From positions 1 through 20,942 of IMG/VR virus record IMGVR_UViG_3300036846_000979: a DNA stretch of 20,942 nt; one strand, 5' to 3'. The stretch comes from a virus. Positions within the stretch are counted from its first letter, which is position 1. Every line of letters begins with the position of its first letter. The notes below the pieces were generated by a model that was given only the letters and a program-made list of their open reading frames with translations, did no database searches and was not told where the DNA came from. This document shows positions 1 through 20,942 of this stretch, in pieces. Position numbers and translations under genes: made by a program.

Positions 1-646
1 CCGCCGGTGCGCGGCGCGGGGCAGCTTGCTTCTGGCGGTTCAGCCCCGAGGTCGGCATCGGCGGCGGTGGCGTCATGTCGATGACTTCATCGGTCGTGTA
101 GGACAGGCCGCGGATCACGTCGGAGAAATCGGCTCGGCACGCCTCAGAGGTGGCGCGTGCCATGAGCATGGCGCGGGGATACTTCTTCCAGGACGAGCCT
201 GGCTTTCCGACCAGATCCGCCCGCTCGGCGTCGCGCATGGTGAAGGTGTGGCTGGTCCATTCCTCGGCAGGCCATTCGCGACGGTGGCACTGGGCCGTCG
301 CCGACTCGTCGTCGCCTTGGACCCGGATTTGGTGGCCGGCCGACATGACCAGGGCGCGCATGCCCTCAGGGGACAGCGACGGGCGGCCCGAGATGATGTT
401 GATGGTGTTGAGCGACTGCATCGGGCCGAGGCCGAGCTCGTGTCCGTAGAGGATTACCGCGCAGACGGCATCGGGCTTGCCGCGTAATCCACCGGGCACC
501 ATTTCGGTGTTGGCGATGACTTCTGAGAGGTACACCACATCGCGGATCACGGCGAAGGAATCACGGGCGACGGGGGCGGCCGAGAGCAGATCGGGCCGGG
601 TGGCGGCCACGGCCACGATCTCGCCGGTGGGCTCGACGACGCTCAC
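1..646 (-). CDS. recT: RecT-like single-strand annealing protein (partial, C-terminus cut)
   Basis: Phage recombinase of the RecT type, expected to bind ssDNA and promote strand annealing in replication and recombination. The frame stays open from GTG at 646 to the left edge (215 codons, 3' end missing). It carries the signatures I know from actinobacterial RecT-like proteins: an YGHELGLGPMQSL segment (about residues 67-79), a GRPSLSPEGMRAL segment, TFTMRDAERADL, then SWKKYPRAMLMARATSEACR followed by DVIRGLSYTTDEV. A Pro-rich linker begins shortly before the edge. GGGGGAG lies only 2 nt before the GTG, which is tight; an in-frame TTG 11 codons upstream or a GTG at codon 11 are alternatives. 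It lies downstream of the HTH gene at 708-917 and probably shares its promoter. The family call rests on recall of motifs, not on a search. Confidence 0.8.
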   Translation of the reverse strand, partial: MSVVEPTGEIVAVAATRPDLLSAAPVARDSFAVIRDVVYLSEVIANTEMVPGGLRGKPDAVCAVILYGHELGLGPMQSLNTINIISGRPSLSPEGMRALVMSAGHQIRVQGDDESATAQCHRREWPAEEWTSHTFTMRDAERADLVGKPGSSWKKYPRAMLMARATSEACRADFSDVIRGLSYTTDEVIDMTPPPPMPTSGLNRQKQAAPRRAPA

Positions 647-707
647 GACTCCCCCGCCGCGGCGCCCCGTTGCCGCGAACAATCGTTATGTAAAGCTGAG
701 GCGCCCC

Positions 708-917
708 TCACGCCGGCTCCGAACGCCTCGGCTCGACCCGCTGGGCGAGCTGCCAGGCGATGATGTCGGCCTCGGCGTAGAGCACGGTGCGCCCGCTCTT
801 GATGTAGGCGGGCCCCTTGCCCTGCCAGCGCCAGTTCTGCAGTGTGCCGACCGCGATCCGCAGACGCCGGGCGGCCGCTTTCTCGCCCAACATTCTTTCA
901 CTCACTGACGGACACAT
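708..917 (-). CDS. AlpA/excisionase-like helix-turn-helix DNA-binding protein
   Basis: A 69-aa protein of the MerR/AlpA/excisionase HTH_17 type. The segment LGEKAAARRLRIAVGTLQNW (residues 10-29) is the HTH, followed by a wing of the form GKGPAYIKSGRTVLYAEADI and a final ITAW-like helix (IIAWQLAQRV). Such proteins act as small transcription regulators or recombination directionality factors. It is the first leftward gene from the divergent control region and precedes recT, so it may be an early regulator. The start is uncertain: ATG at 917 has an AAGG 4 nt upstream, but ATG at 893 or GTG at 905 would better suit a promoter using the TTGACA at 943-938. No integrase was found nearby, so an excisionase role cannot be argued from context. 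Confidence 0.75.
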   Translation of the reverse strand: MCPSVSERMLGEKAAARRLRIAVGTLQNWRWQGKGPAYIKSGRTVLYAEADIIAWQLAQRVEPRRSEPA

Positions 918-928
918 TGAACCTTATC

Positions 929-943
929 GGCGGTTGTTGTCAA
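929..943 (-). promoter_or_regulatory. Operator/promoter-like element upstream of HTH gene
   Basis: On the minus strand this reads TTGACAACAACCGCC and ends 11 nt before the ATG at 917. It matches 13 of 15 bases of the plus-strand element at 1120-1134, which lies at an almost identical distance from the start codon of the divergent lipoprotein gene. The TTGACA could also be a -35 box, with CAATGT 18 nt further on as a weak -10; that would favour an internal start at 893. Confidence 0.45.
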
Positions 944-1042
944 GTTGATGTCCGAAACCCGCTAATCGGTTTTTGCCACCGCCGTTCCGCCCAGCGCCAG
1001 TGTGCGCCGGAGCGGCGACAACGGGGCGACAATTTCGGCCGG

Positions 1043-1078
1043 GACGCCCCACCGGTGTCAGACGCCCCAACGGTGTCA
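1043..1078 (+). repeat. Two tandem 18-bp direct repeats (candidate operator)
   Basis: GACGCCCCACCGGTGTCA (1043-1060) is followed immediately by GACGCCCCAACGGTGTCA (1061-1078), with one mismatch. The GGTGTCA core recurs in inverted form (TGACACC) at 1121-1127, on the other side of the presumed plus-strand promoter. Repeated sites bracketing a promoter in a divergent region suggest regulator binding; the binding protein is unknown, and either nearby HTH protein is a candidate. Confidence 0.55.
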
Positions 1079-1086
1079 ATGGTGGG

Positions 1087-1115
1087 TTGCGTTCCGTGAG
1101 GTTTAGTGGTAAGGT
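1087..1115 (+). promoter_or_regulatory. Candidate sigma70-type promoter for the lipoprotein/HTH pair
   Basis: TTGCGT (1087-1092), a 17-nt spacer, then TAAGGT (1110-1115). The predicted start point near 1122 would give a leader of about 25 nt before the ATG at 1147. Each hexamer matches only 3 of 6 consensus bases, although the spacing is ideal. The promoter lies between the tandem repeats (1043-1078) and the inverted element (1120-1134). Confidence 0.4.
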
Positions 1116-1119
1116 GGCG

Positions 1120-1134
1120 TTGACACCAACCACC
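1120..1134 (+). promoter_or_regulatory. Operator-like element upstream of lipoprotein gene
   Basis: TTGACACCAACCACC ends 12 nt before the ATG at 1147. It is a 13/15 match to the minus-strand element at 929-943, so the two divergent genes carry the same motif in the same relation to their start codons. It is too close to the ATG to serve as a -35 box for this gene, which favours an operator or a leader element. Confidence 0.45.
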
Positions 1135-2181: not shown

Positions 2182-2279
2182 CAGAAGATGGCGAAGGCCG
2201 CGACGACGAGGGCGAGGATGACGACGGTGATCACCAGGGCGCCGATCAGTACCTCGTGCTCTGGATACTCCTCGCTCAC
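2181..2279 (-). CDS. 32-aa single-TM mini-protein
   Basis: A 32-aa ORF: an acidic N-terminus ([10 protein letters not shown]) and one strongly hydrophobic helix (residues 11-32) running to the C-terminus. The GTG overlaps the TGA of the fibre gene (GTGA), and its own TGA shares one base with the ATG of the next holin-like gene (TGATG). This exact tiling makes translation likely despite the small size. Location in the lysis cassette suggests an accessory membrane protein such as an antiholin-like factor; there is no homology evidence. Confidence 0.6.
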
Positions 2280-3262
2280 CAACTCAGCACGATCACGTAA
2301 CCGTCACCGCCGCGCCCGCCCGCCCCGCTCGACACGCTCGCGCCATTGGCCCCGCCGCCGCCACCGCCGCCACCGCTACGGACGCCGTTGCCGCCTGCAC
2401 CGCCATTGCCGCCGGTGTTCGAGCCACCACCACCGCCGCCGGTCGCAGGGGTGAGTATGGACAGAGGTGGCTGACCGACGACGCCGTTGCCGCCCGCCCC
2501 GCCACCTGCTGCACCAGGTGCCCCCACCCAGCCGGGCGTCCCTGGCGTAAGGCCGGCCCAGCTTCCGTTCCCACCGCCGAAGGTCCCGTTGGTGGCGGAC
2601 ACGCCGCCACCACCACCGCCACCGCACACATACGGTGCGAACGGCGCAGCTACACCAGCCGCACTTGCACCGCCGGCGCCGCCGGTGCCGCCCAGGTACA
2701 GGCCCCAGCCCGAGCTCGAGCCACCGCCGCCGCTGTTACCCCCGCCGGCCCCACCGCTAGCACGGAGCCACGAGTCGGGGCTTCCACTAGGGCCGAACAA
2801 GCTCACTGCGCCACCAGAGCCGATGTTGATTGCACCCGCTGACGCCGCCCCGCCCGCGCCGCCGGCGCCGACCTGCACCCGCACGGTTGCCGTCAGCTCC
2901 GCGGCGAGCAAGACGAAGTCGGTGACGCCACCGGCCTGACCGCCACCGCCACCGCCCGCAGCGGCACCTAACGCCGCCGCGGCACCCGAAGATCCTCCCC
3001 CACCGCCGCCGGCCACGATGACCCTCACGAATGTCACGTTCGCCGGCTTCGTCCAGGTGAAGTTCCCCGGCGTCGTCCAGCTCTGGAGGTTCGTTACCCC
3101 TGGCGGACCCTGGGGCCCGACCGGTCCCTGTGGCCCGACGGGACCCTGGGGCCCGGTCGGCCCCGGTGGCCCGACCGGACCAGGCGGCCCGATGATCGTC
3201 ACGTCGACGTTGAAGGGGTTGGACCCGGCCGCGGCCACCTGAGCGCCCTCGAGGTCGCTCAT
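2276..3262 (-). CDS. Tail fibre: collagen-like stem plus glycine-rich domain
   Basis: A 328-aa structural protein. After a short N-terminal part come about ten G-X-Y triplets (residues 25-55, [19 protein letters not shown] style), a typical trimerising collagen-like stem of phage fibres. A motif of the kind [20 protein letters not shown] (about 62-81) opens a glycine-rich domain with many G4-G6 runs, ending [14 protein letters not shown]. This matches the glycine-rich C-terminal domain I know from phage tail fibre and adhesin tips, which form polyglycine sandwiches at the host-binding end. It is the probable receptor-binding fibre. Its start overlaps the preceding gene (ATGA). The many G runs make this sequence prone to assembly error and recombination. 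Confidence 0.8.
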
Positions 3263-3821: not shown

Positions 3822-4607
3822 TCAGGGCCGAGCGGAGCCGTCGTAAGGGAACTCATAGAAGTTGATGTCCCGGTTGCCCGGGTCCAGGCCGAGCGTGTAG
3901 CCGTTACCGTCACGGCGACCCGCGATTCCGATGCACGGCCACTTCTGGCGGTTGTACTTGTCGTTATTCGTTCCGCCCAGCATCGGCGCCCCTCTATAGG
4001 CGTGCACCGCTCCGTCACGGAACGCAACCCAGTACCCGCCCGAGCGCGGGTCCAAAAGCATCATGTTGTCCTCCTGTTCTGTCGGAATCGGTCCCATGGC
4101 GCCGCCGGCCGCCATGGCGATGACCTGGTCCATCGGGAAGCCCGGGCCGCAGTCCCAGTGTCCGCCACCGGCCGCGCCGAGGTCGACGTGCTGGCAGACG
4201 CCCGACGCCCCGCCTTGGGCCTCGGCGGCGTTGAGCCGCACCAGCGGGATGCCGAACGCGGCGCACTCCTCGGCCACCCATTGGGCCGTGTTGGCGAGCA
4301 TGGTCTCGTGCATCTGCCACTCCGCCGGCGTCCAGGCGGCGAAGGCGCAGAGCTCGGCCGCCACTGAGTAGGGGTTGGCGTTGCCCTGGGTCCAGGCCTT
4401 GTCCGAACGGCGCACGTACTCACCGATGACGCCGGGCGTGTCGTCGATGCCGGTATGGCTGGACACGCCCGAGCTCGGGCTCGAGAAGTAGCTGCCGAGC
4501 GACTGGTAGGTGCGGGCGCCCTCGGCGGTGTGGAGCACCACCAGGCGCACACCACTCCCCCGGCTCGAGTAGTTCGGCGAGCCGATCCACTCGCGTCTAA
4601 GCGCCAC
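3822..4607 (-). CDS. Endolysin: N-acetylmuramoyl-L-alanine amidase (Amidase_2/PGRP)
   Basis: A zinc amidase that cuts the MurNAc-L-Ala bond of peptidoglycan for host lysis. Counted from a possible upstream ATG at 4643, ligand-like residues are H38 (VVLHTAEG), H152 (CQHVDLG) and C165 (HWDCGPGFP), as in Amidase_2 enzymes; H63 (SSHTGID) is also typical. A C-terminal domain (about 195-270) contains GYWVAFRDGAVHAYRGAPM and later CIGIAGRRDGNGYTLGLD, resembling the GYW..DGG.F.FGDA repeats of actinobacterial surface proteins, so it may bind the wall. I prefer GTG 4607: AGAGGAGA stands 4 nt upstream and it overlaps the end of the 45-aa ORF (4597-4734). There is no signal peptide, so export needs a holin. 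Confidence 0.85.
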   Translation of the reverse strand: MALRREWIGSPNYSSRGSGVRLVVLHTAEGARTYQSLGSYFSSPSSGVSSHTGIDDTPGVIGEYVRRSDKAWTQGNANPYSVAAELCAFAAWTPAEWQMHETMLANTAQWVAEECAAFGIPLVRLNAAEAQGGASGVCQHVDLGAAGGGHWDCGPGFPMDQVIAMAAGGAMGPIPTEQEDNMMLLDPRSGGYWVAFRDGAVHAYRGAPMLGGTNNDKYNRQKWPCIGIAGRRDGNGYTLGLDPGNRDINFYEFPYDGSARP

Positions 4608-4734
4608 CGTTCTCCTCTGGTGCGTCGCCCTCGGCGCCGCCATGCGACGGTTCGGTTTCGGGCTCGGGTTCGGGTTCGGGGATCACCTGGGGTTCGGGTT
4701 CGGGGATCACCTGGGGTTCGGGTTCGGTCGTCAT
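4597..4734 (-). CDS. 45-aa Pro-Glu repeat mini-protein
   Basis: A 45-aa ORF with a near-perfect ribosome site (TAAGGAG, 6 nt before the ATG). The protein begins MTTEPEPQVIP, repeats EPEPQVIP, continues with EPEPEPETEP and ends in a Gly/acidic tail (GGAEGDAPEENGGA). It is strongly acidic, probably disordered, and has no TM segment. It fills the gap between the baseplate hub gene and the amidase and overlaps the amidase GTG. Possible roles are a linker-like accessory of the baseplate or a leader that couples lysin translation; no family is recognised. Confidence 0.6.
   Translation of the reverse strand: MTTEPEPQVIPEPEPQVIPEPEPEPETEPSHGGAEGDAPEENGGA
4666..4725. repeat. 24-bp in-frame tandem repeat (2.5 copies)
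   Basis: Two exact 24-bp units (4725-4702 and 4701-4678 on the minus strand), each coding EPEPQVIP, followed by a half unit (4677-4666). The copies are identical at the DNA level, which suggests recent expansion by slippage and possible length variation between related phages. Confidence 0.85.
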
Positions 4735-4744: not shown

Positions 4745-6040
4745 TTATCGTCGGGACAGTGCGTTGATGGCCTGGTTCTGCGTCCTCATCAGCCCGCCCA
4801 GCGTCGTGGTAGCCCGGGCGACGACGAGATCGACGTCCTCTTGGCCGTCGTCGCCGATGTCGTAGGTGATGCCGAGAATCCGCTGGGCCGTGTTCACCTT
4901 GAGTCGCCCCGAGAAGATGACGACCGGCACGTTGTCGCCCATGTTGATGAGTCCCCAGGTGTAGAAGTTGGGCGTCAGCGTGAGCACGTAGGTCGGAGCG
5001 AGCACGCTGTAGTAGCCGACCTTGCCCGCGGCGCTCTGATTGAGCCAGCCGCTGTTGGTCGAGCTCACGCTCGCCGAGTCGCTGGTCATGAACGTGCCGA
5101 CCGTCGTGCCGGCGGCGTCGGGGGTCCACGACTCACCCGCCAGCTGGGACACCGAGTTGTCGGCCGACCCGTTGTTGCCGATGGTACGCCAGTAGTTCGT
5201 GTAGTCCGCCGCGGTCAGTTGGCGCTGCACCTTGGACACGCTCGAGCCGTAGGCCAGCGTGACCCCGCTCTGGGTGACGCCCTGTTGGGGGTAGAAGATG
5301 CGCATGGCATCGCGGGTGGCGCTGTTCGTCGCCACCTGTGCGCTGGCGTTGTTGGTCATACACAGGGGCTTTATGTCGTAGTCGAAGCCGTTGGACAGCT
5401 TGGCCAGGTTGTCGAACTGGGTCAGCACGACCATGCCGCCCTGCTGGGCGATCGAGCGGGTCTGGCCCGACGGAGGAGTCCGCTGGGTGCCGTCGGGGTT
5501 CGAATGGAACGTCCAGAGCGGCAGGTAGCAGCCGGGCGAGAACGACGTCGGGCTGCCGATGGGGTAGGTGGAGAACACACCCGCCGCCCAGCTGCGCCAC
5601 TGGTCCGCTGCGTAGTCCTGGTCAAAGACCGGCGGCGTGCCCGAGCCCATGTAGTCGGTCTGGGTGCCGGTGTAGATGCGCCGGTTGAACATGGCGAGGT
5701 AGTCGTGGCACGTGAACGTCACCGTGTGGGACTGCTCGTCGATCTGGTCGTCGCTGGCGTCGACCATGCCGCGGAACACTGGTATGTCGGCCCCGCTGTT
5801 CTCGTCCCAGCGCCAGGCGACCACGTCGTGTTGCAGCTCTGCGATCAGGGCGCAGTCGGGAGCATGGCCGTCCATGTCGAAGGTCAGGGTGGCCGGCATG
5901 TCCCAGGCCTGCACGAGTTTGCGGTTCCGCGCGCTGTCGAGCTGGACGATGATCGTCTGGCCCCAGGTCTGGTCATTGAACTGCCGGCGGTGCAGCGTCA
6001 GGCGCCAGCGCCCTCGCCCGGCCGGTATGGGGGTGGCCAT
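4745..6040 (-). CDS. Baseplate hub / minor tail protein (Tal-N/gp27-like)
   Basis: A 431-aa protein placed directly after the Dit-like gene, where siphoviruses encode the hub that closes the tail tube. The N-terminal half has the sequence character of hub proteins of mycobacteriophage and other actinophages: RGRWRLTLHRRQFNDQTW, then FDMDGHAPDCALIAELQHDV, VFRGMVDASDDQIDEQSHTV and a FTCHDYLAMFNRR segment typical of this family's second domain. The open frame runs upstream to 7033, but that part only shadows the neighbouring gene; ATG 6040 overlaps the previous stop by one base (TGATG) and is the true start. No catalytic domain was seen, so wall-degrading activity in the tail is not supported. 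Confidence 0.75.
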   Translation of the reverse strand: MATPIPAGRGRWRLTLHRRQFNDQTWGQTIIVQLDSARNRKLVQAWDMPATLTFDMDGHAPDCALIAELQHDVVAWRWDENSGADIPVFRGMVDASDDQIDEQSHTVTFTCHDYLAMFNRRIYTGTQTDYMGSGTPPVFDQDYAADQWRSWAAGVFSTYPIGSPTSFSPGCYLPLWTFHSNPDGTQRTPPSGQTRSIAQQGGMVVLTQFDNLAKLSNGFDYDIKPLCMTNNASAQVATNSATRDAMRIFYPQQGVTQSGVTLAYGSSVSKVQRQLTAADYTNYWRTIGNNGSADNSVSQLAGESWTPDAAGTTVGTFMTSDSASVSSTNSGWLNQSAAGKVGYYSVLAPTYVLTLTPNFYTWGLINMGDNVPVVIFSGRLKVNTAQRILGITYDIGDDGQEDVDLVVARATTTLGGLMRTQNQAINALSRR

Positions 6041-6897
6041 CAGCTGATGTACCCGTCGTTCCAGAGGAAGGTCGCCTGGGTGGCGCCGGTCGAGCCGCTC
6101 CCGAGCTGGAGGATGAACCGGGCGTAGGAAGGACCGACCGGCAGGACCGGCCAGCCCGTCGTCAGCGCCCAGTTGATCTGATTGAGCACCGATTGACCGG
6201 CCAGGGTCGCGGTGTGCGCGGCACAGTCGAGCGTCAGCACCTGGCCGGCGCCGAGCGTGGTCGACAGCTGGATCGTGTAGGTGGCGAAGCTGGGCGGCCC
6301 CGTCGAGGGGAAGGCGGTCGTGACGATCTGGCCGTTGGTCAGCGGCCCGGTGACCTGGACGAGCGGCCGCGCCGGCACGTCGCCCGCCGTGTTTATGTTC
6401 GCGCTGTTCGCACCCCAGAGCGCGGTGGCGCTCTTCTGCGCCGGGTCGAAGGCGATGGGGTTGGGCGCGATCCATTGCAGGGCGATGTCGCGCTGGGTGG
6501 CCCCCACGATGGGCCAGTCGTAGGAGTCGGGGCGCAGCGTGAGCGTCCGCTCGGGGTTGGTGCCGCGGTCGAGCACGTAGTGGAGCACCGGTCGCGCGCT
6601 CGGCACCATGTACGGGGCGAAGTTGTCGGCCACGTCGTCGATGCGGGCGCCGGCCGTGGTCAGCGCCGTGATGGCGGCGGTGACGGTGCGCGCGCCCATG
6701 TACTGGGTGCGGTCGATGATGCCGTCCTGGTCCGGGGCGTTGTTCATGACCGTGCGCATGATCGGGGTGCCGAGGTCGAGGCTCTGGCACATCCAGCCTC
6801 CGCTCGGGTTGTCGAGCTGGATCGTGTTGCCGCCGAGGGCGAGCCAGGCCTGGCGCACACAGGTCGGCATACCCGAGATCGGCTGGTGGATTGTCAT
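6040..6897 (-). CDS. Distal tail protein (Dit-like)
   Basis: A 285-aa tail protein lying between the tape measure and hub genes, the usual Dit position. It begins MTIHQPISGMPTCVRQAW and includes segments common in actinophage Dit-like proteins: LDLGTPIMRTVMNNAPDQDG (about 40-59), IDRTQYMGARTVTAAITALT, RPVLHYVLDRGTNPERTLTL and QWIAPNPIAFDPAQK. A galectin-like C-domain is plausible (NGQIVTTAFPSTGPPSFATY onward) but not proven. ATG 6897 overlaps the tape-measure stop (ATGA), and its own stop overlaps the hub start. It is expected to form the ring joining the tube to the hub. Confidence 0.75.
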   Translation of the reverse strand: MTIHQPISGMPTCVRQAWLALGGNTIQLDNPSGGWMCQSLDLGTPIMRTVMNNAPDQDGIIDRTQYMGARTVTAAITALTTAGARIDDVADNFAPYMVPSARPVLHYVLDRGTNPERTLTLRPDSYDWPIVGATQRDIALQWIAPNPIAFDPAQKSATALWGANSANINTAGDVPARPLVQVTGPLTNGQIVTTAFPSTGPPSFATYTIQLSTTLGAGQVLTLDCAAHTATLAGQSVLNQINWALTTGWPVLPVGPSYARFILQLGSGSTGATQATFLWNDGYIS

Positions 6898-8576
6898 ATC
6901 CGGTTCCTCGCCACCCAGGCGGCGCGGCGCATGAAGGCGTCCACGTCCACGCCGCTGGTGAAGTGGGCGTTGTTGACGACCACGGCCGGGCCGCTCGAGC
7001 TCGACGCCATGGCGGGGGCCAGCCCACCGGCACCCGCGCTGACGCCGCCCCCGCGGGCCGGGGTGAGCGCGGCGACGGTGGCGTCGAGGGCGGGCTGGAC
7101 GTGCTGGTCGAAACCGGCGGTTATCCCGAGGCCGAGGCCCTGCATGATGAACTTGCCCTGCTCCATCATCACCTTCGACGGGCTGAAGATCGACAGCGGG
7201 TTCTTCAGGAAATTGCCGACCTTTTTCGCCACGCCGCTGAAGAAGCCCTCGACGGCCTTCCAGGCGTCCTCGGCGCCACGTTTGAGGCTGTTGATGATCG
7301 TCATGCCGATGTCGTAGAGCAGGTTCGTCACATCGCCGATGGCGTTCTTGATGTCGCCCGGGATGCCGCTGAAGAAGCTGACGATGTTGTTCCAGTACGT
7401 CACGATCATGAACACGGCGAGCCCGAACGGGCCCGTGAGGATGGCGAGCAACAGGGGCCAGTTGGCGGCGACCCAGTTGTAGACGCCCATGATGGCGTTC
7501 TTGATGGCGTCGAAGGCGACCACGACGGCGTTCCAGACGTCGAGGACGACCGCCTTGAACGTGTTGAAGTGCGTGACGATGAGCACGATGGCGCCGACCA
7601 GCACCACGCCGATCAGCGTGGCGATGAGCACGACCGGGTTGGCCTCGAGGGCGAGGTTCCACAACCACGTCGCCGCCGTGGCGACGCCGCTCGCGACGGC
7701 CTGCGCGGCCTGGCCGATCTTGAGCAGGTTCACCGCGTTCTTGGTGATCTCGATGGCCGAGCCGAGCCCGGCCATGGCGATGCCGGCGGTGCCGATGGCC
7801 GGGCCGTACTTCTGGGCAAACAGCGAGACGTGGTCGGTGATCTCGGCACGCATGGCGTGGAGGTGGCCGGTGAAGGTGTTGGCCTGGGCACTGGCCTGGC
7901 CGCCGAGACTCTGGCCCAGCTGGTCGACCGCCCCCTTGTAGTCCTTGGTGCCGTCCTTGTTCTTGGTGACGACGATGCCGAATTCCTTGAAGATGCGGGC
8001 GCTGCCGTTGTAGGCCTTGCCGAGCTGCCCCGCCGCAGAGGTCAGGTCCTCGTGCTTGGCCGCGGCGAGGTCGGTCGCCGTGTTGAGCAGTTTGAGCGCT
8101 TCGGTCGGGTCGTGGGTGGCCGAGGTGAGCACGCGCAGAGCGCCCTGGGTCTCGTCGGCCGTGTTGCCGAACTTCTCCTGGTGGCCGATGGCCTCCTCGA
8201 CCTGTTTGGAGTACTGGTCGTAGGAATGGCCGGTGGCGGTGATCGAGGCCTGGAGCTGGGCGTGCGCCGCCTGGTCCTTGGACCCGAGCGCGCTGAGCGC
8301 AAGCCCGACGCCGGCCGCCGCACCACCGACGCCCGCCATCTTGAGGCCGGTGCTCTTGGCGTGCTCGCCCATGTTCTGCATGGACTGGTCGGCGGTCTGC
8401 AGCGCGTTGCCGAAGGGCCCGAGCGCCCCGGTGCTGTTGAGCGTGCCGAGCATGCCCGAGAAGGCGCTGTGCATGCCCTGCGCGGCGCTCTGGCCCTTCT
8501 GCTGGGCGCCGGTGAAGCTCTTGCCGAGCCCGGTGACGTCCCCGAGAATTTTTACCATTATGCTAGGCCCCGCCAC
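6894..8576 (-). CDS. Tail tape measure protein
   Basis: A 560-aa protein that sets tail length and helps DNA ejection. It has an Ala/Gly/Gln-rich helical N-terminus (SFTGAQQKGQSAAQGMHSAF), long amphipathic helices, a hydrophobic core (about 290-400: NPVVLIATLIGVVLVGAIVL and later WPLLLAILTGPFGLAVFMI), and a C-terminal FLKNPLSIFSPSKVMMEQGK segment, a very common tape-measure motif. GTG 8576 has AAGGA 8 nt upstream; ATG 8558 is possible. At 560 aa it is short for a siphovirus; by the usual rule of about 0.15 nm per residue the tail would be roughly 80-85 nm. Normally it follows the chaperones directly; here a plus-strand nuclease gene separates them. Confidence 0.9.
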   Translation of the reverse strand: MAGPSIMVKILGDVTGLGKSFTGAQQKGQSAAQGMHSAFSGMLGTLNSTGALGPFGNALQTADQSMQNMGEHAKSTGLKMAGVGGAAAGVGLALSALGSKDQAAHAQLQASITATGHSYDQYSKQVEEAIGHQEKFGNTADETQGALRVLTSATHDPTEALKLLNTATDLAAAKHEDLTSAAGQLGKAYNGSARIFKEFGIVVTKNKDGTKDYKGAVDQLGQSLGGQASAQANTFTGHLHAMRAEITDHVSLFAQKYGPAIGTAGIAMAGLGSAIEITKNAVNLLKIGQAAQAVASGVATAATWLWNLALEANPVVLIATLIGVVLVGAIVLIVTHFNTFKAVVLDVWNAVVVAFDAIKNAIMGVYNWVAANWPLLLAILTGPFGLAVFMIVTYWNNIVSFFSGIPGDIKNAIGDVTNLLYDIGMTIINSLKRGAEDAWKAVEGFFSGVAKKVGNFLKNPLSIFSPSKVMMEQGKFIMQGLGLGITAGFDQHVQPALDATVAALTPARGGGVSAGAGGLAPAMASSSSGPAVVVNNAHFTSGVDVDAFMRRAAWVARNRI

Positions 8577-11694: not shown

Positions 11695-13059
11695 TTAGCG
11701 CCTCCGGGCCTTGGGCGTGCCCGGTCCTGAGCCCGGCTCGGCCTCGTCGCGGCGCTCGGTCTCTTCGGCCTCGGCCTCTTCGGCCTCGGCGACCGTCGGC
11801 AGCGTGCCCACCACGGTGAGCGGCACGAAGCTGGTCGTGTCGAGCGTGCCGAACGCCACGTAGCCGCCGTAGGCGACCTGGACGCCGAGCAGGGAAGGCT
11901 CGATGACGCTGAGAAGTCCTATGACCTCCTCATAGACCTCGTAGAGCGTGGACGGCCCGACGATGAGCGTGCCTGAGGCGAAGGTCGGCACCACGATGCG
12001 CGGCAAGCCGAACAGGTCGCCGGCGAACATGCCGAGCTGAGACGTGCCCGGGGCGCCCATCTCGCGGGTCGTGTCGACGGGCAGCACCACGCGGGTCGTG
12101 TCGACTAGGGCGCCGAGGGCGGCCCACACGTCGAGACTGCACCAGATCCGGTCGGGCATGCGCCGGGCCTGCTGGTAGGAGTGCATCGCCGCGGTGTAGA
12201 GGCCGGTGGCCCACTGCGACAGCGTGACGGGCTGGGCCGCCGTCCCTACCGAGACCGCCGTGCCGGTGGCCGCCGTCTTGAAGTTGGCCGCCACCGCCGT
12301 CTCGGTCTGCACCGAGTACACCTCGGCCAGGTCACGCACGACGATGTCCCACGCCGCTGGGCTCGTCCAGTCGATGTCCTGGCGGGAGATGTCGACGTAG
12401 CCGCCATAGGTGGCCTTGGTGAAGGTCACCGGGCTGACGACCATGGCCTGGGACGACAACGCCGTCTTCTGCGTGGCCTGCACGCCGACGGTGGTGTGCG
12501 TGGTGACCTTGGGCCGGGTGAAGGTGGTGCCGGCGATCCCGCCGAGCCCTCGAGCACCGCCCAAGCTGGTGATCAGCGGGCGGAAGCTGTCGATGAGGCT
12601 GACCACCTGGCCGATGATCGGGGTGGGCAACAGGCCGGGCGTCTGGGTCGTCGTCATGTCGGCGCGCTGGGCGTAGAAGTTGCCGAGACGTGACGCCGCC
12701 TGCTCGTCGCGCACCGAGCGGTCGAGGATCGAGTTGCCGCGTACGTAATCCACGATGAACTCGCCCGGGGTGTTCCAGGGTGTCGGGCGGTTCGGCACGG
12801 CCGCCGCCCTTACCGCGGCGGTCTCGGGCCGGGGCAGCGCTGACACGGTGTCGTTATGGGTGGCGCGCAGGGCCTCGAAGCCGGCCAGCGGCTCTATCTG
12901 GGCGTCGATCTCGTTGATGCGCTGACGGGCCGCCTCGAGCAGGTTGCGCTCGGCGTCGACCAGGTCGCGCTCCTCGCCTACCTGGCCGAGGATGGCGTCG
13001 ATGGTCGAGATCTGCTCGTCACGCGCTTCGCGCAGACGGTCAAGGACAACGTTGGGCAT
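11695..13059 (-). CDS. Major capsid protein, HK97 fold
   Basis: A 454-aa capsid subunit. An N-terminal helical part (VLDRLREARDEQISTIDAIL through EIDAQIEPLAGFEA, about residues 5-75) resembles the HK97 delta/scaffold domain, to be removed by the protease encoded upstream. The body has typical HK97-like features: TTTQTPGLLPTPIIGQVVSL, a TFTKATYGGYVDISRQDIDW strand (E-loop region) and RMPDRIWCSLDVWAALG. The C-terminus is a charged tail, VAEAEEAEAEETERRDEAEP followed by GSGPGTPKARRR, unusually long and acidic for this family. The frame opens at 13584, but ATG 13059 with GGAAAGGA 8 nt upstream is the start. Confidence 0.9.
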   Translation of the reverse strand: MPNVVLDRLREARDEQISTIDAILGQVGEERDLVDAERNLLEAARQRINEIDAQIEPLAGFEALRATHNDTVSALPRPETAAVRAAAVPNRPTPWNTPGEFIVDYVRGNSILDRSVRDEQAASRLGNFYAQRADMTTTQTPGLLPTPIIGQVVSLIDSFRPLITSLGGARGLGGIAGTTFTRPKVTTHTTVGVQATQKTALSSQAMVVSPVTFTKATYGGYVDISRQDIDWTSPAAWDIVVRDLAEVYSVQTETAVAANFKTAATGTAVSVGTAAQPVTLSQWATGLYTAAMHSYQQARRMPDRIWCSLDVWAALGALVDTTRVVLPVDTTREMGAPGTSQLGMFAGDLFGLPRIVVPTFASGTLIVGPSTLYEVYEEVIGLLSVIEPSLLGVQVAYGGYVAFGTLDTTSFVPLTVVGTLPTVAEAEEAEAEETERRDEAEPGSGPGTPKARRR

Positions 13060-13193: not shown

Positions 13194-13838
13194 CTAGTCG
13201 CTGCTGGCGGACTCTAACGCTTCGCGCCACTTGCGCCAAGCATCCACCTGGCGCACGGGCCTGGTCACCTGGGCCTCGCGAATCTGCAAAGCGTCCATGG
13301 CGGTGCGGACTTCTGACACCCCGGCGTCCTCGAACACCGGCGTCGGCGTCAGGCTCACTTCGACCAGACGTGACTCGTGGTGCGTCACCTTGTCCTTGTG
13401 CTCGGGGCCGAGGGCGGGGTCCCAGTCGTCCCAGGCGATGTGGTCCCAGGTGGATTCGCGGGGCTGGAACCCCACCGACAGCCCGACCAGCAGCCCGTCG
13501 GCCGCGGCGCCGGCGGCGCGCTGGGCCTCGGGCGAGGATTCGTCGAGACGCCACACCCCGCGCAGCCCGTCGTCGTGTGACCACTTCTCGGCCACGCCGA
13601 CGGGGATCCGCTGGCGGTCGTGGAACAGCATCAACGGCAACTTGGAACCCGAGCCGCCGGCGGTCGAGCGCTTGAAGCTGTTGAGGGCGTGGCGCTCCAT
13701 GAACATGCCGCAGTCGCCCCAGGTGTCATACGGCACGGCGCGCCCCTCGAGGTAGCGGTAGGGCTTCTTGCCGGTCACCTCGGTGTCGACGAGCTCGAGC
13801 CGGGTGGCGTAGGTACGTGCTTCAGGTGCGATGGTCAT
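13194..13838 (-). CDS. Prohead maturation protease, HK97 family
   Basis: A 214-aa serine protease (HK97 prohead protease type) that cleaves the capsid N-terminal domain during head maturation. The catalytic triad is visible: H73 in LMLFHDRQRIPVG, S121 in GLLVGLSVGFQP, and E160 in ESRLVEVSLTPTPVF. The N-terminal RYLEGRAVPYDTWGD segment is the family's usual first strand. Its ATG overlaps the portal stop (ATGA). The C-terminal 35 residues are charged and helical. Confidence 0.9.
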   Translation of the reverse strand: MTIAPEARTYATRLELVDTEVTGKKPYRYLEGRAVPYDTWGDCGMFMERHALNSFKRSTAGGSGSKLPLMLFHDRQRIPVGVAEKWSHDDGLRGVWRLDESSPEAQRAAGAAADGLLVGLSVGFQPRESTWDHIAWDDWDPALGPEHKDKVTHHESRLVEVSLTPTPVFEDAGVSEVRTAMDALQIREAQVTRPVRQVDAWRKWREALESASSD

Positions 13839-15055
13839 GGCTGGACTCCTCCGGTTTCGCCGGTGTCGGGTGCGAGCGGCGCGTTGGGGTCGTCGGGTGA
13901 CGCGGTCGAGGTGCCGCCGAGGTCCGCGGTCGCACCTGTCGCCCCGAAGGTCTGGGGCGGCAGGCCCACCATGACGCGCGCTTCTGGAAGCGACATGATG
14001 CCCGAAGCCACACCGGACACCGCGGCCGCCATGGACGTCGCCAGGTCCTCACGGAGCAGCTGGCTGCGCTGGAAACGGATCGTGGTGCCCCGCGGGAGCC
14101 AGGCGTTGGACCAGACGTCCTCGAAGTCGGCCAGCAGCGGCTCGAGCGAAGTACGCAGGACCTGTTGGTACTGCGGGCCGGCGGTGCGGTACGTCATGCC
14201 GGCCACCGGGGCACCGAGCCAGTAGCCGTCGAGGTTGAACATGTTCGCCACGTCGATGAGCGAGAGACGGCGCGCCTCTGAGAGCTGGGTGTCGGTCGGC
14301 GACCACGCCAGCGGCTGGATCACCGTGCCGTTGGGCAGGATGACCGGCTCGCGCACCGGGCCGCTGAAGTTGGTCATCCACGTCGCCTTGGCCTCGTCGG
14401 CCACTTCCTGGGTCAGCGTCGCCTGGGGGGTGATGATGGCGGCCGAGGGCACCGCGCCGTTGGAGAGCGCCCCGCGCTCGTACTCCTCCTCCATCGCCAC
14501 ACGGTCCAGCGTGTTGAGGTACTCCTCGACGACGCCGACGCCGCGGACGGGATAGAACCGGTCGGCGCCGCGCTTGACGTGGATCACGTCGTCGGTGACG
14601 AGCATTTCGCCCAGGTAGTTGTACGACGCGGCGGGCCCGGTCGGGTCGACCCAGTTCCACATGATGTTGACCCATTGCACCGGCAGCCAGACCACGCTCA
14701 ACGGCCAGCCATCAGCCCCCCGGGCTGTCACATAGCTGATGGCGTTGCCGTTGAGCAGGTAGTCCTCGACGTTGACCTGGACGAACCAGGACCCGGCGTT
14801 GTCGGGGTCGGGGCGGCTGAGCATGCGGGGCTGGCTGTCGAGGCGCTGGTAGCCCCGGTAGGCCTCCATCGGCATCTGCTTGCACATGCCGCTGTAGAGC
14901 TGGAGCGCGCGCCCAACGGCGGGCACCTGGCGCGCCGTCGAGGCGTCGACCACGTAGGGCCCGACGCCGGCGAGCAGGTTCACCCCCGGCGGCATGGCGC
15001 TGCGCGCCCGCGCGCTGGTGATCATGGGCCCGCTCGGGGTCGCGGTCAGCGTCAT
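13835..15055 (-). CDS. Portal protein, HK97 family
   Basis: A 406-aa portal subunit forming the DNA entry channel at one capsid vertex. Typical sequence landmarks are PAVGRALQLYSGMCKQMPME (about 45-64), VNVEDYLLNGNAISYV, DDVIHVKRGADRFYPVRGVG with EEYLNTLDRVAMEEEYERGA, and a C-terminal SEARRLSLIDVANMFNLDGY, the segment linked to the channel helix in phage portals of this family, with RTSLEPLLADFEDVWSN further on. A flexible Ala/Gly/Pro tail (from about 375) ends ETGGVQP. ATG 15055 lacks a strong ribosome site. It lies between terminase and protease as usual. Confidence 0.9.
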   Translation of the reverse strand: MTLTATPSGPMITSARARSAMPPGVNLLAGVGPYVVDASTARQVPAVGRALQLYSGMCKQMPMEAYRGYQRLDSQPRMLSRPDPDNAGSWFVQVNVEDYLLNGNAISYVTARGADGWPLSVVWLPVQWVNIMWNWVDPTGPAASYNYLGEMLVTDDVIHVKRGADRFYPVRGVGVVEEYLNTLDRVAMEEEYERGALSNGAVPSAAIITPQATLTQEVADEAKATWMTNFSGPVREPVILPNGTVIQPLAWSPTDTQLSEARRLSLIDVANMFNLDGYWLGAPVAGMTYRTAGPQYQQVLRTSLEPLLADFEDVWSNAWLPRGTTIRFQRSQLLREDLATSMAAAVSGVASGIMSLPEARVMVGLPPQTFGATGATADLGGTSTASPDDPNAPLAPDTGETGGVQP

Positions 15056-15130: not shown

Positions 15131-15298
15131 ATGTGGCATTTCAAGGTCCTCCGCGTCGACGTCAAGAGCGAAACCGACGAGGCGACCTTCCCGGGCGGCT
15201 GGGAGCCCTTCCACGCCGAGGCCTCGACGATCTCGGGCGGGGGCTGGGTCGTGTACCTGCGCCAGGACGACGGAGTCACCGAGCCGCCACCCAAGTAA
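15131..15298 (+). CDS. 55-aa conserved-type phage protein (GGWEPF motif)
   Basis: A 55-aa ORF on the opposite strand from its neighbours. It starts MWHFKVLRVDVKSETDEATF, has GGWEPFHAEASTISGGGWVV in the middle and YLRQDDG near the end. The pattern of a first beta-strand, GGWEPF, then a strand ending in LR matches a small uncharacterised family I recall from actinophages and their hosts. It lies between the portal start (15055) and the terminase stop (15346), with no coding minus-strand frame in the gap. The ribosome site is weak and no sure promoter was found. Function unknown. Confidence 0.6.
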   Translation: MWHFKVLRVDVKSETDEATFPGGWEPFHAEASTISGGGWVVYLRQDDGVTEPPPK

Positions 15299-15345: not shown

Positions 15346-16686
15346 CTAGTAAATCCGGAACGACCCGAGCGCAGCGGGAGCATGGTCGTAGGCCCACAAC
15401 GCCACGGTGGCCGCGGTGAGCGTGGCGATCGAGGTGGCGGACTGGCGCCGGCCCCAGCTCCAGGCGTCGGCGAAGCTGCGCCGCGCCGCCGAGGCGGCCG
15501 CGGCGTCGAGCGCGCTATGGGGCCGGATGCGCACAGCGCCCTCTGTGATGGCTTCTAAGAGCCCCTGGCACGCCGCGGCGTAATCCCTCCCCTTGACGCC
15601 CTCGAGGGCCACCCCGTGGCGCCTGAGCACGTCTGCGACGTCGATGGCCGGCCCGGCCTCGTCGAAGGCGAAGGCGAGCGGCGCCCAGCGCTCGACGAGC
15701 TCGGCGGCGCGCTCGGGGATCCAGCCGACAGTTGGGCGACAATCGGCGACCTCGATGTGCGCGACGCCGTCCTCTGAGCGCCAGGCCGCCGCGATGGCGC
15801 CCTCTGAGCGGTCCAGCGCCACGTCGAAGCCGAGCGCCACCGCCCCGCGCTCGGGCATGGGCGCTTCTGGGTCCGCCGCGTCACGCCACGCCGGGGCGGG
15901 GATGACGCGGTCGACCATCGACACCCACTTGTTGGCATAGGCCCGGGCGAACTCGTCGGGGCCGAGCATGGCCAGGGCGGCGTGCATGGAGTCCGCGCCG
16001 ATGGTGCGCCCGTAGGCGGGGTGGTAGAGCGGCCAGGAGGCCGGATCAGTGGGATCGAGCTCGTCGGGACAGGACCACTCGAAGAAGGCGACGCCCCGGT
16101 CCTTGCCGCTGAGTGCCGCAGCTCGGCCGGCTTCTACGGTGCCGAGCCACCACAGCGCCGCCGCGTCGCCGGCGGTGGACAGTTTCCAGACCTGGGCGTT
16201 GGGGCGCGTGGCCTGGGTCGGAATCACCGCTTGGTCGAGCTGAGAGCCCTTCATCTGGTCGAAGGCCCAGCATTCGTCGATGACCACGATGTCGGAGACC
16301 TTGCCGTGCAGACCGGTCGGGTTGGGCGGGAAGGGACGGATCATGCCACCGCTGACGTTCCAGCGGATGTCCTCGGATCCGGCCATGCGGCGCAACCGGG
16401 CCGCGTCGGCGAACGGGGCGAGCAGGGGCCAGTGTTCGTTCGTCAGCCAGTCGACCGCGTCCTTCTGGGTCTGCATCGTGTACCAGGCCCGACAACGCGG
16501 CACGAGCAGCGCTCGGTGGTCGAGCACGAGGCCGAACAGCGACGTCTTGCCGCTTTGCCTGGGCACCGTGACGACGACGAGCTGGTAGACGAACCGCCCG
16601 TCGGAGTCGATCTCGAGCGCCACGTCGGCCACGTGGCGCTGCCAGGGCATGAACGGCTTGCCCACCACCTCGGCGAGCCGCGCCAC
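15346..16686 (-). CDS. terL: Terminase large subunit
   Basis: The packaging motor ATPase and nuclease. Counting from GTG 16686 (446 aa): adenine-binding segment KPFMPWQRHV (10-19), Walker A VPRQSGKTS (41-49), Walker B DIVVIDE (132-138), coupling motif KLSTAGD (168-174), and an RNase H-like nuclease domain with D288 (ALGFDVALD) and D342 (AFAFDEAGPA). The N-terminus is uncertain: the frame is open to 16803, and TYGPAV just upstream of the chosen GTG looks homologous to other TerL proteins, so initiation inside terS (ATG 16779, or a CTG at 16785 eight nt after AGGAGG) is possible. It would pair with TerS from the gene just upstream. Confidence 0.9.
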   Translation of the reverse strand: MARLAEVVGKPFMPWQRHVADVALEIDSDGRFVYQLVVVTVPRQSGKTSLFGLVLDHRALLVPRCRAWYTMQTQKDAVDWLTNEHWPLLAPFADAARLRRMAGSEDIRWNVSGGMIRPFPPNPTGLHGKVSDIVVIDECWAFDQMKGSQLDQAVIPTQATRPNAQVWKLSTAGDAAALWWLGTVEAGRAAALSGKDRGVAFFEWSCPDELDPTDPASWPLYHPAYGRTIGADSMHAALAMLGPDEFARAYANKWVSMVDRVIPAPAWRDAADPEAPMPERGAVALGFDVALDRSEGAIAAAWRSEDGVAHIEVADCRPTVGWIPERAAELVERWAPLAFAFDEAGPAIDVADVLRRHGVALEGVKGRDYAAACQGLLEAITEGAVRIRPHSALDAAAASAARRSFADAWSWGRRQSATSIATLTAATVALWAYDHAPAALGSFRIY

Positions 16687-16708
16687 CGCCGGCCCGTAGG
16701 TCGCCCGG

Positions 16709-17008
16709 CTAGTCGTTCGCCGGCTTGCTATCGCCGGGGGTGGCCCGCAGGACGTCGGCCATGAGCGAATCCCAGGCATCGACAGCTTTGGTTCCTCCTG
16801 CACTCAGACCAGCGGCCTGTCGTATTTGCAAGTAAGCCACGTTGGCCCGGGTCACGACGTCGGGCTCGCCCGCCTGTTCGCCCCGATCGACCGCCCGAGC
16901 TTGCGCCCGGAGCGCCGCGCGCTCGGCCTTGCCGATGTCAGGGCGGACCGTCAGATCCGCGTTCAATCCCGTCTCGACCCGGCCAACCTGGAACGGTCTG
17001 GACTTCAT
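16709..17008 (-). CDS. Putative terminase small subunit
   Basis: A 99-aa, charged, mostly helical protein (RPDIGKAERAALRAQARAVD, 22-41, then RANVAYLQIRQAAGLSAGGT) directly upstream of terL. Position, size and helical nature fit TerS, which recognises the packaging site and loads TerL. No clear HTH can be assigned by eye, so the call is mostly contextual. AAGGGG 13 nt upstream and AGG nearer the ATG are modest ribosome sites. AGGAGG near its 3' end overlaps GGA GGA codons and may also serve terL. Confidence 0.65.
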   Translation of the reverse strand: MKSRPFQVGRVETGLNADLTVRPDIGKAERAALRAQARAVDRGEQAGEPDVVTRANVAYLQIRQAAGLSAGGTKAVDAWDSLMADVLRATPGDSKPAND

Positions 17009-17205
17009 CGGCCTAAATCAGCCCCTTGACCAGGTCTTTAGGAAAAAAACCGACACGAAGACGGACGTGGACAGGCACGCTCCCCAGAAAAACGAACCCC
17101 CCCCACCGGCGGGCACCCCCCCGGGTCGTCGCGCCCGCCGGCATGGGGTGGGGGTAGGGGGTGCCGGTCGGTCGTAACTATCTCCCCCACCGCTGGGGTG
17201 GCAGG
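17009..17205. other. Intergenic GC-tract region, candidate packaging (cos) site
   Basis: This 197-bp gap between the HNH nuclease gene and terS has no supported ORF. It contains C8 and C7 tracts, a perfect 9-bp inverted repeat (CCGGCGGGC 17106-17114, GCCCGCCGG 17133-17141, 18-nt loop), G4/G5/G5 runs (about 17144-17161) and A7 at 17043-17049 (T7 on the transcribed strand). HNH proteins encoded beside terminase genes are known partners in cos cleavage, and cos sites commonly lie just upstream of terS, so this is the most likely place for genome ends. A transcription terminator or promoter may also sit here. Confidence 0.45.
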
Positions 17206-17484
17206 TCACAGGCGCGTCTCGTAGAACGGCTGCGAACCAACCCCCCGTCGCCGGCGACCGACGCCACCGTGCCGTCCCCAGTTGCACGGGCCACACGACG
17301 CACGCAGGTTCGCCATGTCGTAGACCGAGCCGCCCTCTGCTCGAGGGATGACGTGGTCCACCTCGGTGGCATAGGTCCTGCACTTGGGCCCACGTATCTG
17401 GCAGGTGTAGTTGTCACGGACCAACACCATGCGACGCAGGCGCCGGTAGCCCTGTGTCCACAACAACCTGCTATCTGCGGCCAC
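17206..17484 (-). CDS. HNH endonuclease beside terminase
   Basis: A 92-aa HNH nuclease. From GTG 17484: helix YRRLRRMVLVRDNYTC (13-28), zinc-type Cys C28 and C34, catalytic DH at 43-44 (EVDHVIPRAEGG), N59 (MANLRASCGPCN) and second Cys pair C64/C67. In HK97-like phages such HNH proteins join the terminase complex and are needed for cos cutting. The frame is open to 17721, but the upstream part is a shadow of the 17471-17746 gene; the GTG overlaps that gene's end by 14 nt. GTG 17487 and 17493 are alternatives. The basic tail (GVGRRRRGVG) may bind DNA. Confidence 0.8.
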   Translation of the reverse strand: MAADSRLLWTQGYRRLRRMVLVRDNYTCQIRGPKCRTYATEVDHVIPRAEGGSVYDMANLRASCGPCNWGRHGGVGRRRRGVGSQPFYETRL

Positions 17485-17746
17485 GACCGCCACGCATGGA
17501 GCGCACCGCGCCCTGGTGCTGGCGTGCCACGTGCGCCCGCACCGTGCTCGGTGCACCGCGTGTACTACGGCGTGCCGAATATGAAAGGGCGGCACGGTGA
17601 GTGCGCCCACGCTGGGCCTCCGATATGCCGGCCCGTCGGGCCTGAGCCTTGGTAGGTGCGGGGTAGCGCCAGTTGCTACGTGGGCCAGAATGCAGAGCGA
17701 ATGCGCTACGTGGCAGGGCATTGCGCTGCCGTGCGGTCAGTGCCAT
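17471..17746 (-). CDS. Small basic phage protein (LTARQRNALP family type)
   Basis: A 91-aa basic protein with an excellent ribosome site (AAAGGAGGT, 4 nt before the ATG). It begins MALTARQRNALPRSAFALHS, a start I recall from small actinobacterial and phage proteins in which (K/R)(Q/A)R..LP.SAFALP is followed by helical repeats over basic residues. Later come KAQARRAGISEAQRGRTHRA and an Arg-rich C-terminus ending GGRGRR. Nucleic acid or capsid association is possible given the charge; no function is established. It precedes and overlaps the HNH gene, so both belong to one unit. Confidence 0.65.
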   Translation of the reverse strand: MALTARQRNALPRSAFALHSGPRSNWRYPAPTKAQARRAGISEAQRGRTHRAALSYSARRSTRGAPSTVRAHVARQHQGAVRSMRGGRGRR

Positions 17747-19713: not shown

Positions 19714-20099
19714 GCCGGCCCCTCGTTATGGAAGGCGGCGTGATGTCTGGCGCACAGGACTACGAGGTCGCTCGGCCGTTCGTGCCCGAGGCGGGCGTAG
19801 GTGTTGTGGTGGACGTGCAGCTCGACGTCGCGCTGACTGGCGCTGCAGAGCTGACACTTGAAGTCGGCGCGGACGAGCGCACCGCGTCGCACGGTCTGCC
19901 AGTGCTCGGTCTGGAGATATTCCGCGTAAGGCAGCTTCTTGAACTCGGGCCGGTGGGCGTCCCAAAGCCACTCATCCGAGAGCCACCCGGCCGCGGTCAC
20001 CGGACTGGTGCCGCGGGCTTCGAGTTCGTCCAGAAACAGCCCTAGCAGGTGAGAGATGTGGACAGCTGTGACGTTTTCGCAGGTCACGGCGTTATCCAC
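19710..20099 (-). CDS. HNH endonuclease
   Basis: A 129-aa HNH nuclease. The N-terminal part (FLDELEARGTSPVTAAGWLS, then EFKKLPYAEYLQTEHWQ) is helical; the core has C82 and C85 (DFKCQLC), HH at 97-98 (ELHVHHNTYARLG), then RPSDLVVLCARHHAAFH with C116, H119, H120 and H124. This is the YxxYLxTxHW...HHxTYxxxGxExPxDLxxLCxxCH type, well known in phages and prophages. The GTG at 20099 overlaps a perfect DnaA-box match on the other strand. It lies in the early region away from terminase, so it may be a homing or recombination-linked nuclease. Its stop overlaps the next start (GTGA). Confidence 0.85.
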   Translation of the reverse strand: MDNAVTCENVTAVHISHLLGLFLDELEARGTSPVTAAGWLSDEWLWDAHRPEFKKLPYAEYLQTEHWQTVRRGALVRADFKCQLCSASQRDVELHVHHNTYARLGHERPSDLVVLCARHHAAFHNEGPA

Positions 20100-20100
20100 A
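20057..20100. promoter_or_regulatory. Two DnaA-box-like sites
   Basis: TTATCCACA at 20092-20100 (plus strand) is an exact DnaA box of the R1 type. CTGTCCACA on the minus strand (20065-20057) matches 8 of 9 positions of TTGTCCACA, the form usual in Actinobacteria. Both lie within the 5' part of the HNH gene beside an AT-rich stretch. Two sites may occur by chance; location beside repeats and a replication-initiator-like gene makes an origin worth testing. Confidence 0.4.
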
Positions 20101-20210
20101 CCCCCAACTGAAAGTAATTAACAGATGTAAGTAATTGTCTCTGGTAGGGGTAGGGGTACAGGGCATGGCGCGGCATATGCGGAACGGATGCGTAGGCATA
20201 TGCGGGCGCA
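20100..20210. promoter_or_regulatory. Intergenic region with paired direct repeats, candidate origin/operator
   Basis: A 111-bp gap between the initiator-like gene and the HNH gene. It holds three pairs of direct repeats: AAGTAATT (20112-20119, 20129-20136), GGGGTA (two adjacent copies near 20146-20158) and GGCATATGCGG (20172-20182, 20195-20205), the last with a palindromic GCATATGC core spaced 23 bp apart. The AAGTAATT part is the most AT-rich stretch I noticed in the window. Iteron-like sites, an AT-rich unwinding element and nearby DnaA boxes fit a replication origin; operator sites for the HNH operon are the alternative. Confidence 0.45.
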
Positions 20211-20564
20211 TTACGGTTCGCATCTTTCGGTTCGCGCTTTTGACCAACGAACCTGAGCGGCGTTGCGGGCGGACGCCGAACGGTTTTCACCGACGCCGTT
20301 CCATTCCATGTAATCGTGGACTTCGATCGTCTCCCCTGGTCCGACCTTGTGCCACAGTTCGACGGCCAGTAGTGCCCGGTGTGCCTTGGGCCGGTAACCA
20401 AGTAGGGCTCTTACCTTCGATCCCGGCACGCGTCCGCGGGTGTTATTGCGGCGACAAAACGCCAAACTTGCGATGAACAGCAATGGGGCGTAACCGTCGA
20501 GTTCGAAGGCGTCAATTACCTTCAAATGTTCGTCAAAATGGTCGTCGAGATAGACCCAGGGCAT
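20211..20564 (-). CDS. Replication-initiator-like winged-helix protein (short form)
   Basis: A 117-aa protein that begins MPWVYLDDHFDEHLKVIDAF, then ELDGYAPLLFIASLAFCRRN, NTRGRVPGSKVRALLGYR, and ELWHKVGPGETIEVHDYMEW, ending in ARNAAQVRWSKARTERCEP. The W...LDDHF.EHPK opening and a late IHDYL.(Y/W)N strand match the N-terminal domain of actinophage replisome-organiser-like proteins (DnaD/winged-helix style) as I recall them. Family members often carry a longer C-terminal part, so this is a short form. The frame opens at 20675, but ATG 20564 follows the 53-aa ORF by 7 nt and starts at the conserved segment; GTG 20567 is an alternative. It sits next to the repeat-rich gap, as expected for an initiator. 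Confidence 0.65.
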   Translation of the reverse strand: MPWVYLDDHFDEHLKVIDAFELDGYAPLLFIASLAFCRRNNTRGRVPGSKVRALLGYRPKAHRALLAVELWHKVGPGETIEVHDYMEWNGVGENRSASARNAAQVRWSKARTERCEP

Positions 20565-20571
20565 CACCGTC

Positions 20572-20733
20572 TCACCATGTCGGGTCGCCCTTCTCGCCCC
20601 GTTCGGCCTCGCGCAAGAGGGCGGCCTGTTCGGCCTGGCTCCAGGCTTCGCGCACCTCGAGGTCGGGCACGCCATCGGCGTCGTGAACCACGAGTACTGC
20701 TTCGAGCCGGGTTTTACAGATCGGGCAAATCAC
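20572..20733 (-). CDS. 53-aa zinc-knuckle-like mini-protein
   Basis: A 53-aa ORF beginning MICPICKTRLEAVLVVHDAD, then an acidic helix (VREAWSQAEQAALLREAERG) and EKGDPTW. A single CPIC pair at the N-terminus suggests half of a zinc ribbon, perhaps completed by dimerisation. The GTG overlaps the previous stop (GTGA), so it belongs to the operon of the right-edge ORF and the initiator-like gene. No function can be assigned. Confidence 0.55.
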   Translation of the reverse strand: MICPICKTRLEAVLVVHDADGVPDLEVREAWSQAEQAALLREAERGEKGDPTW

Positions 20734-20942
20734 TCGTAGTTTTCGGCATCGATCGCGGCGGCTTCTTCGATCTTGCCTAGCTCGGCCACCTGGGCGGCGA
20801 AATCACGCAGCGTGCTTGGCGGAAAGTCCAGGTTCACCGAGTCCAGCCATTTACGGAATGCGGCGCGGTCGGCTGGCTTCAGTCTGTTGAGACGCAACTG
20901 AAGCTCGGCAGTGGCCTTGATCAGCTCGCCGTTAGCGTCGGT
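20730..20942 (-). CDS. C-terminal fragment of an ORF cut by the right edge
   Basis: An open frame with no start in the window: 70 residues to the stop at 20730. The sequence is helical and charged (TDANGELIKATAELQLRLNR, LKPADRAAFRKWLDSVNLDF, PPSTLRDFAAQVAELGKIEE, then AAAIDAENYE). The PADRAAFRKW and TLRDFAAQVAEL helices resemble the small helical tail that ends some actinophage RecT-like proteins, so it may be the missing end of the recT cut at the left edge if the genome is circular. As the ends stand, the frames differ (see findings). Otherwise the gene is unidentified. Confidence 0.6.
   Translation of the reverse strand, partial: TDANGELIKATAELQLRLNRLKPADRAAFRKWLDSVNLDFPPSTLRDFAAQVAELGKIEEAAAIDAENYE

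Follow-up and report, generated by a model that had tools for sequence, protein, structure and literature searches.

The genome map of an uncultured, probable HK97-type siphophage opened within recT, with predicted cohesive ends upstream of terS

The virus record IMGVR_UViG_3300036846_000979 of IMG/VR (G000; 20942 bases), which we analyzed in its entirety and call the window, is interrupted at both edges by open reading frames that resemble parts of RecT. This raises the question of whether the record is a piece of something larger or a whole genome and, in the latter case, of where the ends of the packaged DNA lie. The initial annotation, made from the letters of the window, proposed that it may be the entire genome of a small siphophage that is either circular or terminally redundant and has been cut open within recT. 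From sequence comparisons, we put at about 88% the probability that the window comes from a single uncultured HK97-type siphophage, that it holds all of a ~20.96-kb genome but ~20 nt, and that the virion DNA of this phage is linear with 3' cohesive ends (cos) at 17057-17066.

The list of open reading frames, together with PHROG and Pfam matches, bears out the description of a gene order that runs once around a phage map. A CPIC-type ORF (20572-20733) stands beside the gene of a replication initiation protein (20211-20675, minus strand; phrog_2447 E=4.7e-15). HNH/VRR nuclease genes separate this initiator from TerS/TerL, and one of them, an HNH endonuclease gene (17206-17721, minus; PF01844 E=1.1e-6, phrog_589 E=1.5e-15), lies across the predicted cos site from TerS. 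The gene at the TerS position (16709-17008, minus) is conserved in 74 loci and had no family match in profile searches. It is followed, all on the minus strand, by the genes of the large terminase TerL (15346-16803; phrog_9 E=1.7e-55), the portal (13835-15055; PF04860 E=2.3e-44), the prohead protease (13194-13838; PF04586 E=8.8e-9), encoded apart from the capsid, and the HK97-type major capsid protein (11695-13041; phrog_2263 E=4.6e-45). Portal, TerL, protease, and HK97-type capsid are all present and in order, which places the window among the HK97-type tailed phages. A small plus-strand ORF between portal and TerL (15131-15298) encodes a protein that is 96% identical in several relatives.

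Connector genes lie between the capsid and tail genes. The tape measure gene (6894-8576, minus) was assigned by position and length, as a 560-aa helical ORF without a Pfam match that is conserved in 67 loci and precedes a gene for a distal tail (Dit)-like protein (6040-6891, minus; PF22768 E=0.004, a weak match under the family cut-off). Just ahead of the tape measure gene, where frameshifted tail assembly chaperones are usually encoded, two minus-strand ORFs overlap within 9275-9729 (9379-9729 and 9275-9499). On the opposite strand, a homing-type HNH endonuclease gene (8594-9262, plus; phrog_374 E=9e-57) lies between tail genes; it occurs in the relative L002 at 97% and is absent from most others, with matches in 6 of 194 loci. 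Further left are an amidase (lysin) gene (3822-4643, minus; PF01510 E=1.5e-11) and the gene of a tail-fibre-like protein (2276-3262; phrog_863) in which collagen-like GPQGP repeats precede a glycine-rich domain.

The control region proposed at 918-1146 is a real divergent intergenic gap, between the HTH_17/excisionase-like regulator upstream of recT (708-917, minus; PF12728 E=7.5e-10, phrog_66) and a lipoprotein-like ORF (1147-1599, plus). A promoter scan of this region gave nothing above chance. The convergent terminator that was thought to lie beside it found no counterpart: scanning 600-2400 returned one terminator against 0.5 expected, and it lies outside any convergent gap. The lipoprotein-like ORF encodes a secreted protein of 150 aa without family matches and overlaps an HTH gene (1590-1874, plus; phrog_686). 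Both are oriented opposite to nearly all other genes of the window, and the pair possibly has an early, lysogeny-type, or exclusion function.

Whether this map closes on itself depends on recT. Joined directly, the edges bring the recT frame to a stop after four codons, and the initial annotation had called for 2 extra bases, 1 fewer, or a longer missing stretch. We could confirm its arithmetic: none or one added base leaves a stop, whereas with two the right-edge ORF can be read in frame over its full length. The left part of the gene (2-682, minus; 227 codons encoding the N-terminus and core, cut by the window edge; phrog_561 E=3.7e-32) was used as a query and retrieved L002, from a record of 21969 bases, which is 88% identical to it. 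The 70-aa right-edge ORF (20730-20942, minus), previously noted as a possible RecT tail, aligns to the C-terminus of the L002 RecT with 99% identity. One continuous RecT of 281 aa runs in L002 through both window-edge sequences, with 20 nt between them: the left-edge sequence ends in ...CACCGGCGG, the linker reads GGAAGCGCGACGAGGGGCCT, and the right-edge sequence resumes with ACCGACGCTAACGGCGAG.... These 20 nt leave the remainder (2 mod 3) needed to keep recT in frame, as had been anticipated. The linker is just as long in L266 and L125 (APAGRRDEGPT and SAGSRDEGPD), where it stands ahead of the same C-terminal domain. The RecT of L003 has a core 78% identical to that of the window, and the domain is still recognizable after this core (37% over 52 aa). 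We therefore rejected the right-edge ORF as a separate gene: judged by L002 and L003 it is the C-terminus of RecT, and it needs no start of its own.

Since the linkers of L002, L266, and L125 and the RecT of L003 span the junction, sequence homology identifies the window as a whole circular genome map of ~20.96 kb less ~20 nt, the figure of 20 being taken from the relatives. These ~20 nt were lost in assembly. The break in recT is an assembly artefact and not a biological end, because the linear contigs of relatives end elsewhere, at a cos-like site with terS on one side and the HNH gene on the other.

The relatives that allow this conclusion belong to one uncultured family of IMG/VR contigs, including G001 (L002), G003, G005, G008, G042, and others. 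They are alike in size and have portals 44-98% identical to that of the window, whereas they differ in replication and recombination genes, several of them carrying another annealase core. The family contigs form two classes, circles of 20.2-22.5 kb with overlapping ends and non-overlapping contigs that end at one site upstream of terS. Overlapping ends were found in 10 of the 13 relatives examined that assemble through this site, over 94-803 nt at 92-100% identity, and these circles are opened at different genes. Most of the overlaps are imperfect, probably because of strain variation, which would explain why closed relatives have gone unrecognized.

The second class points to the position of the virion ends. 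Among the 63 contigs for which the end upstream of TerL is known, 25 begin in a single 86-nt bin, 225-310 nt before TerL, where 0.26 would be expected if ends were spread evenly along 21 kb. A T-run follows 2-9 nt after the start in 18 of the 25, against 2.6% of random positions. Five contigs (G024, G025, G033, G042, and G043; 20.2-21.9 kb) have both ends at the site, without overlap. Relative to contigs that span the site, about 7-11 nt are absent between the cos-like ends. For example, G041 reads GCACGC-CTGATGC-GTCGTTTTTT across the site and G042 ends in ...GCACGC and starts with GTCGTTTTTT; L072 reads CAT-CCCGTACGCA-TCGGCGG and L066 starts with TCGGCGG. End repair during library preparation strips bases from 3' overhangs, whereas 5' overhangs are filled in and give overlapping ends. 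Because a few bases are missing between the ends and these do not overlap, we infer a single-stranded 3' extension of about 10 nt at the ends of the virion DNA.

In the window, this site had to be placed by homology, while in the family the fixed ends beside the terminase genes are seen as contig ends. Searching with one regular expression for the cos core recovered the site in roughly half of the sequences that span it, but not in the window. Here the predicted overhang (GTCCGTCTTC) departs from the consensus of the family, given above for L072, which counts against the assignment. We therefore relied on L123, the nearest cos-ended relative (TerL 94%), which begins at window position 17056 on the minus strand. 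This places the predicted overhang of about 10 nt at 17057-17066 (minus; the sequence above is its reverse-complement reading), flanked by the virion ends. Aligned with spanning and cos-ended relatives, the putative cos region (17020-17110, minus) consists of a T-run, about 20 nt, the overhang, 7 nt, and a second T-run.

The closest isolated phages with characterized ends have a comparable arrangement. The portal finds its best matches in Microbacterium phages of cluster EE (about 17 kb) and in Curtobacterium phage Barebow, TerL in Rhodococcus phage RRH1 (14.3 kb) and small Gordonia phages, and the capsid in mycobacteriophages of 55-73 kb at 28-31% identity. The phages of cluster EE (Orlajensenviridae, Pelczarvirinae; Naby and Efeko, 17.0-17.5 kb) are small HK97-type siphophages whose cohesive ends are 3' extensions of 9 bases (PMC7302621, Table 1). 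They resemble the window in the portal (28-29% identical), in the order TerL, portal, capsid, tail, lysis, HTH, in a gene 1 that starts at nt 41-48, and in an HNH gene near the right end; unlike the window, they have capsid and protease in one fused gene, are 3.5 kb shorter, and, in Naby and Efeko, have no listed RecT. Naby ends in ...GACAC-CCCGCCCCA and starts with GTCTTCATTTTC. Barebow (18.3 kb) has the same layout and a portal at 27%, but carries a tyrosine integrase and a fused protease-capsid gene. RRH1 and the Gordonia phages SallySpecial and EricDab (15.9-16.7 kb) have the closest TerL of isolated phages (38-40%) and an HNH gene at the right end, and the left end of EricDab (GTGTCCGTTTTTTCC) resembles that of the window (GTGTCGGTTTTTTTCC); they differ in a fused protease-capsid gene and in lysis genes placed between portal and capsid, and the small Gordonia phages also in having an integrase. 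Gene 1 starts at nt 48 in Naby and at nt 47 in Barebow, and the gene at the TerS position of the window starts at nt 49 from the predicted cut. In several of these phages an HNH gene lies just across the ends. The homology of the site and the layout shared with isolated phages thus support a cos site upstream of TerS.

These comparisons also bear on the identity of the phage. The matches of TerL and portal are mainly to actinophages, portal relatives at 46-49% are found in contigs of Microlunatus, Phytomonospora, and a Propionibacteriaceae MAG, and the phage probably infects Actinomycetota. A lytic lifestyle is likely, since no integrase was found in the ORF list of the window or by the Pfam and PHROG searches. 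These also returned no host gene. A protease-scaffold-capsid fusion has been described for the group of small-genome actinophages (clusters EE, AN, CW, DM, and RRH1; PMC7302621). The two genes are separate in the window (13194-13838 and 11695-13041), so that, for all its resemblance to this group, it is not filed in its clusters. The size of about 21 kb, initially regarded as small for an HK97-type siphophage, is not exceptional, since siphophages with this layout and genomes of only 14-18 kb have been isolated (PMC7302621). The window represents a new, uncultured phage of a known type, a small, probably cos-packaging HK97-type phage and probable siphophage.

The proposed path from virion to record is as follows. 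The linear DNA would be cut at 17057-17066 by TerS/TerL, helped by the HNH nuclease encoded beside the site, leaving the genes of TerS, TerL, portal, and capsid at one end and the HNH gene at the other. After infection, the cos ends would anneal and be ligated. The assembly would have passed through joined ends, either in replicating circles, in concatemers, or in ligated virion ends, which would be why the map is circular, and would then have broken at an arbitrary place inside recT. The circular map of the initial annotation thus stands. That the virion holds a circular molecule is unlikely, given that the linear contigs of the family end at the cos-like site. Probably the virion DNA is neither a circle nor terminally redundant.

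Terminal redundancy would be expected under headful packaging, with circularly permuted virion DNA of which the window would be one permuted assembly. The circular-map contigs do open at many different genes, as this mode predicts, but headful packaging has no fixed ends, and the accumulation of contig starts at one place, with five contigs that both start and end there, is at odds with it. Moreover, where the ends of close relatives are known, they are of the 3' cos type, and an end-against-end comparison found no direct repeat, exact or near, common to the two edges of the window. We thus disfavor headful packaging as very improbable. Equally improbable, in our judgment, is a whole circular map in which the ends upstream of TerS reflect a failure of assembly or sequencing, the virion ends being elsewhere. 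The contig breaks do fall at T-rich and G-rich tracts, and many contigs assemble through these G and T runs, so that a technical cause is possible, and this counts against reading them as cos. Yet many contigs begin at the identical base relative to the motif, five have both ends there with a short constant gap, and both in the site and in its distance from gene 1 the family agrees with phages whose 3' ends have been determined. Least probable of all is that the window was cut out of a larger phage or a provirus and that several kb are lacking between its edges. A record that ends without overlap would fit this, but in L002 a single gene bridges the edges with 20 nt, the closed relatives match the window in size, and neither an integrase nor a host gene turned up in its ORF list or in the profile searches; we rejected this reading.

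The gene that closes the map varies among the relatives in its core. L125, L265, L266, and L228 keep the N-terminal peptide GEIV...TRPDLL(S/T)AAP and the C-terminal domain, and their annealases (L125:5508-6266, L265:5443-6204, L266:5449-6210, and L228:57-803) have cores without a RecT match. L065 (2264-3073) carries, between the same peptide and domain, a third core, matching phrog_10048, of unknown function. The alternative core had no match among the sequences of solved structures. An AlphaFold model with this second core, built from a shallow alignment of 4 sequences, has a mean pLDDT of 57, with C-terminal helices at about 90. Of the ten PDB entries that match it best, nine are RAD52 chains, but the matches are weak, with no E-value below 0.018. 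G003 carries the second core (L266), yet its portal is 98% identical to that of the window. A scan of viral contigs with the C-terminal domain alone gave few new loci. The pattern is suggestive of relatives exchanging the RecT core for other cores while both termini are kept. We give even odds to the broader proposal that the family is a large group of uncultured cos siphophages, 20-22 kb in size, with a modular annealase. In it, a constant N-terminal peptide and a C-terminal three-helix domain, which in the window is the right-edge ORF, would frame a RecT, RAD52-like, or third core, even at 98% portal identity.

With these results, a record whose edges had no explanation becomes a nearly complete genome for which physical ends can be predicted. 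They also indicate that whole members of the family are present in IMG/VR without being recognized as closed, because cos-ended contigs have no overlap and the overlaps of circular ones are obscured by differences between strains; small cos phages of this kind are probably more often complete than they are taken to be. The family adds to the smaller isolated phages a group of siphophages of 20-22 kb without the protease-capsid fusion. It may also offer an example of core exchange in phage annealases and, if this exchange is real, the annealing core would be an exchangeable cartridge, and binding to a partner would fall to the conserved C-terminal domain.
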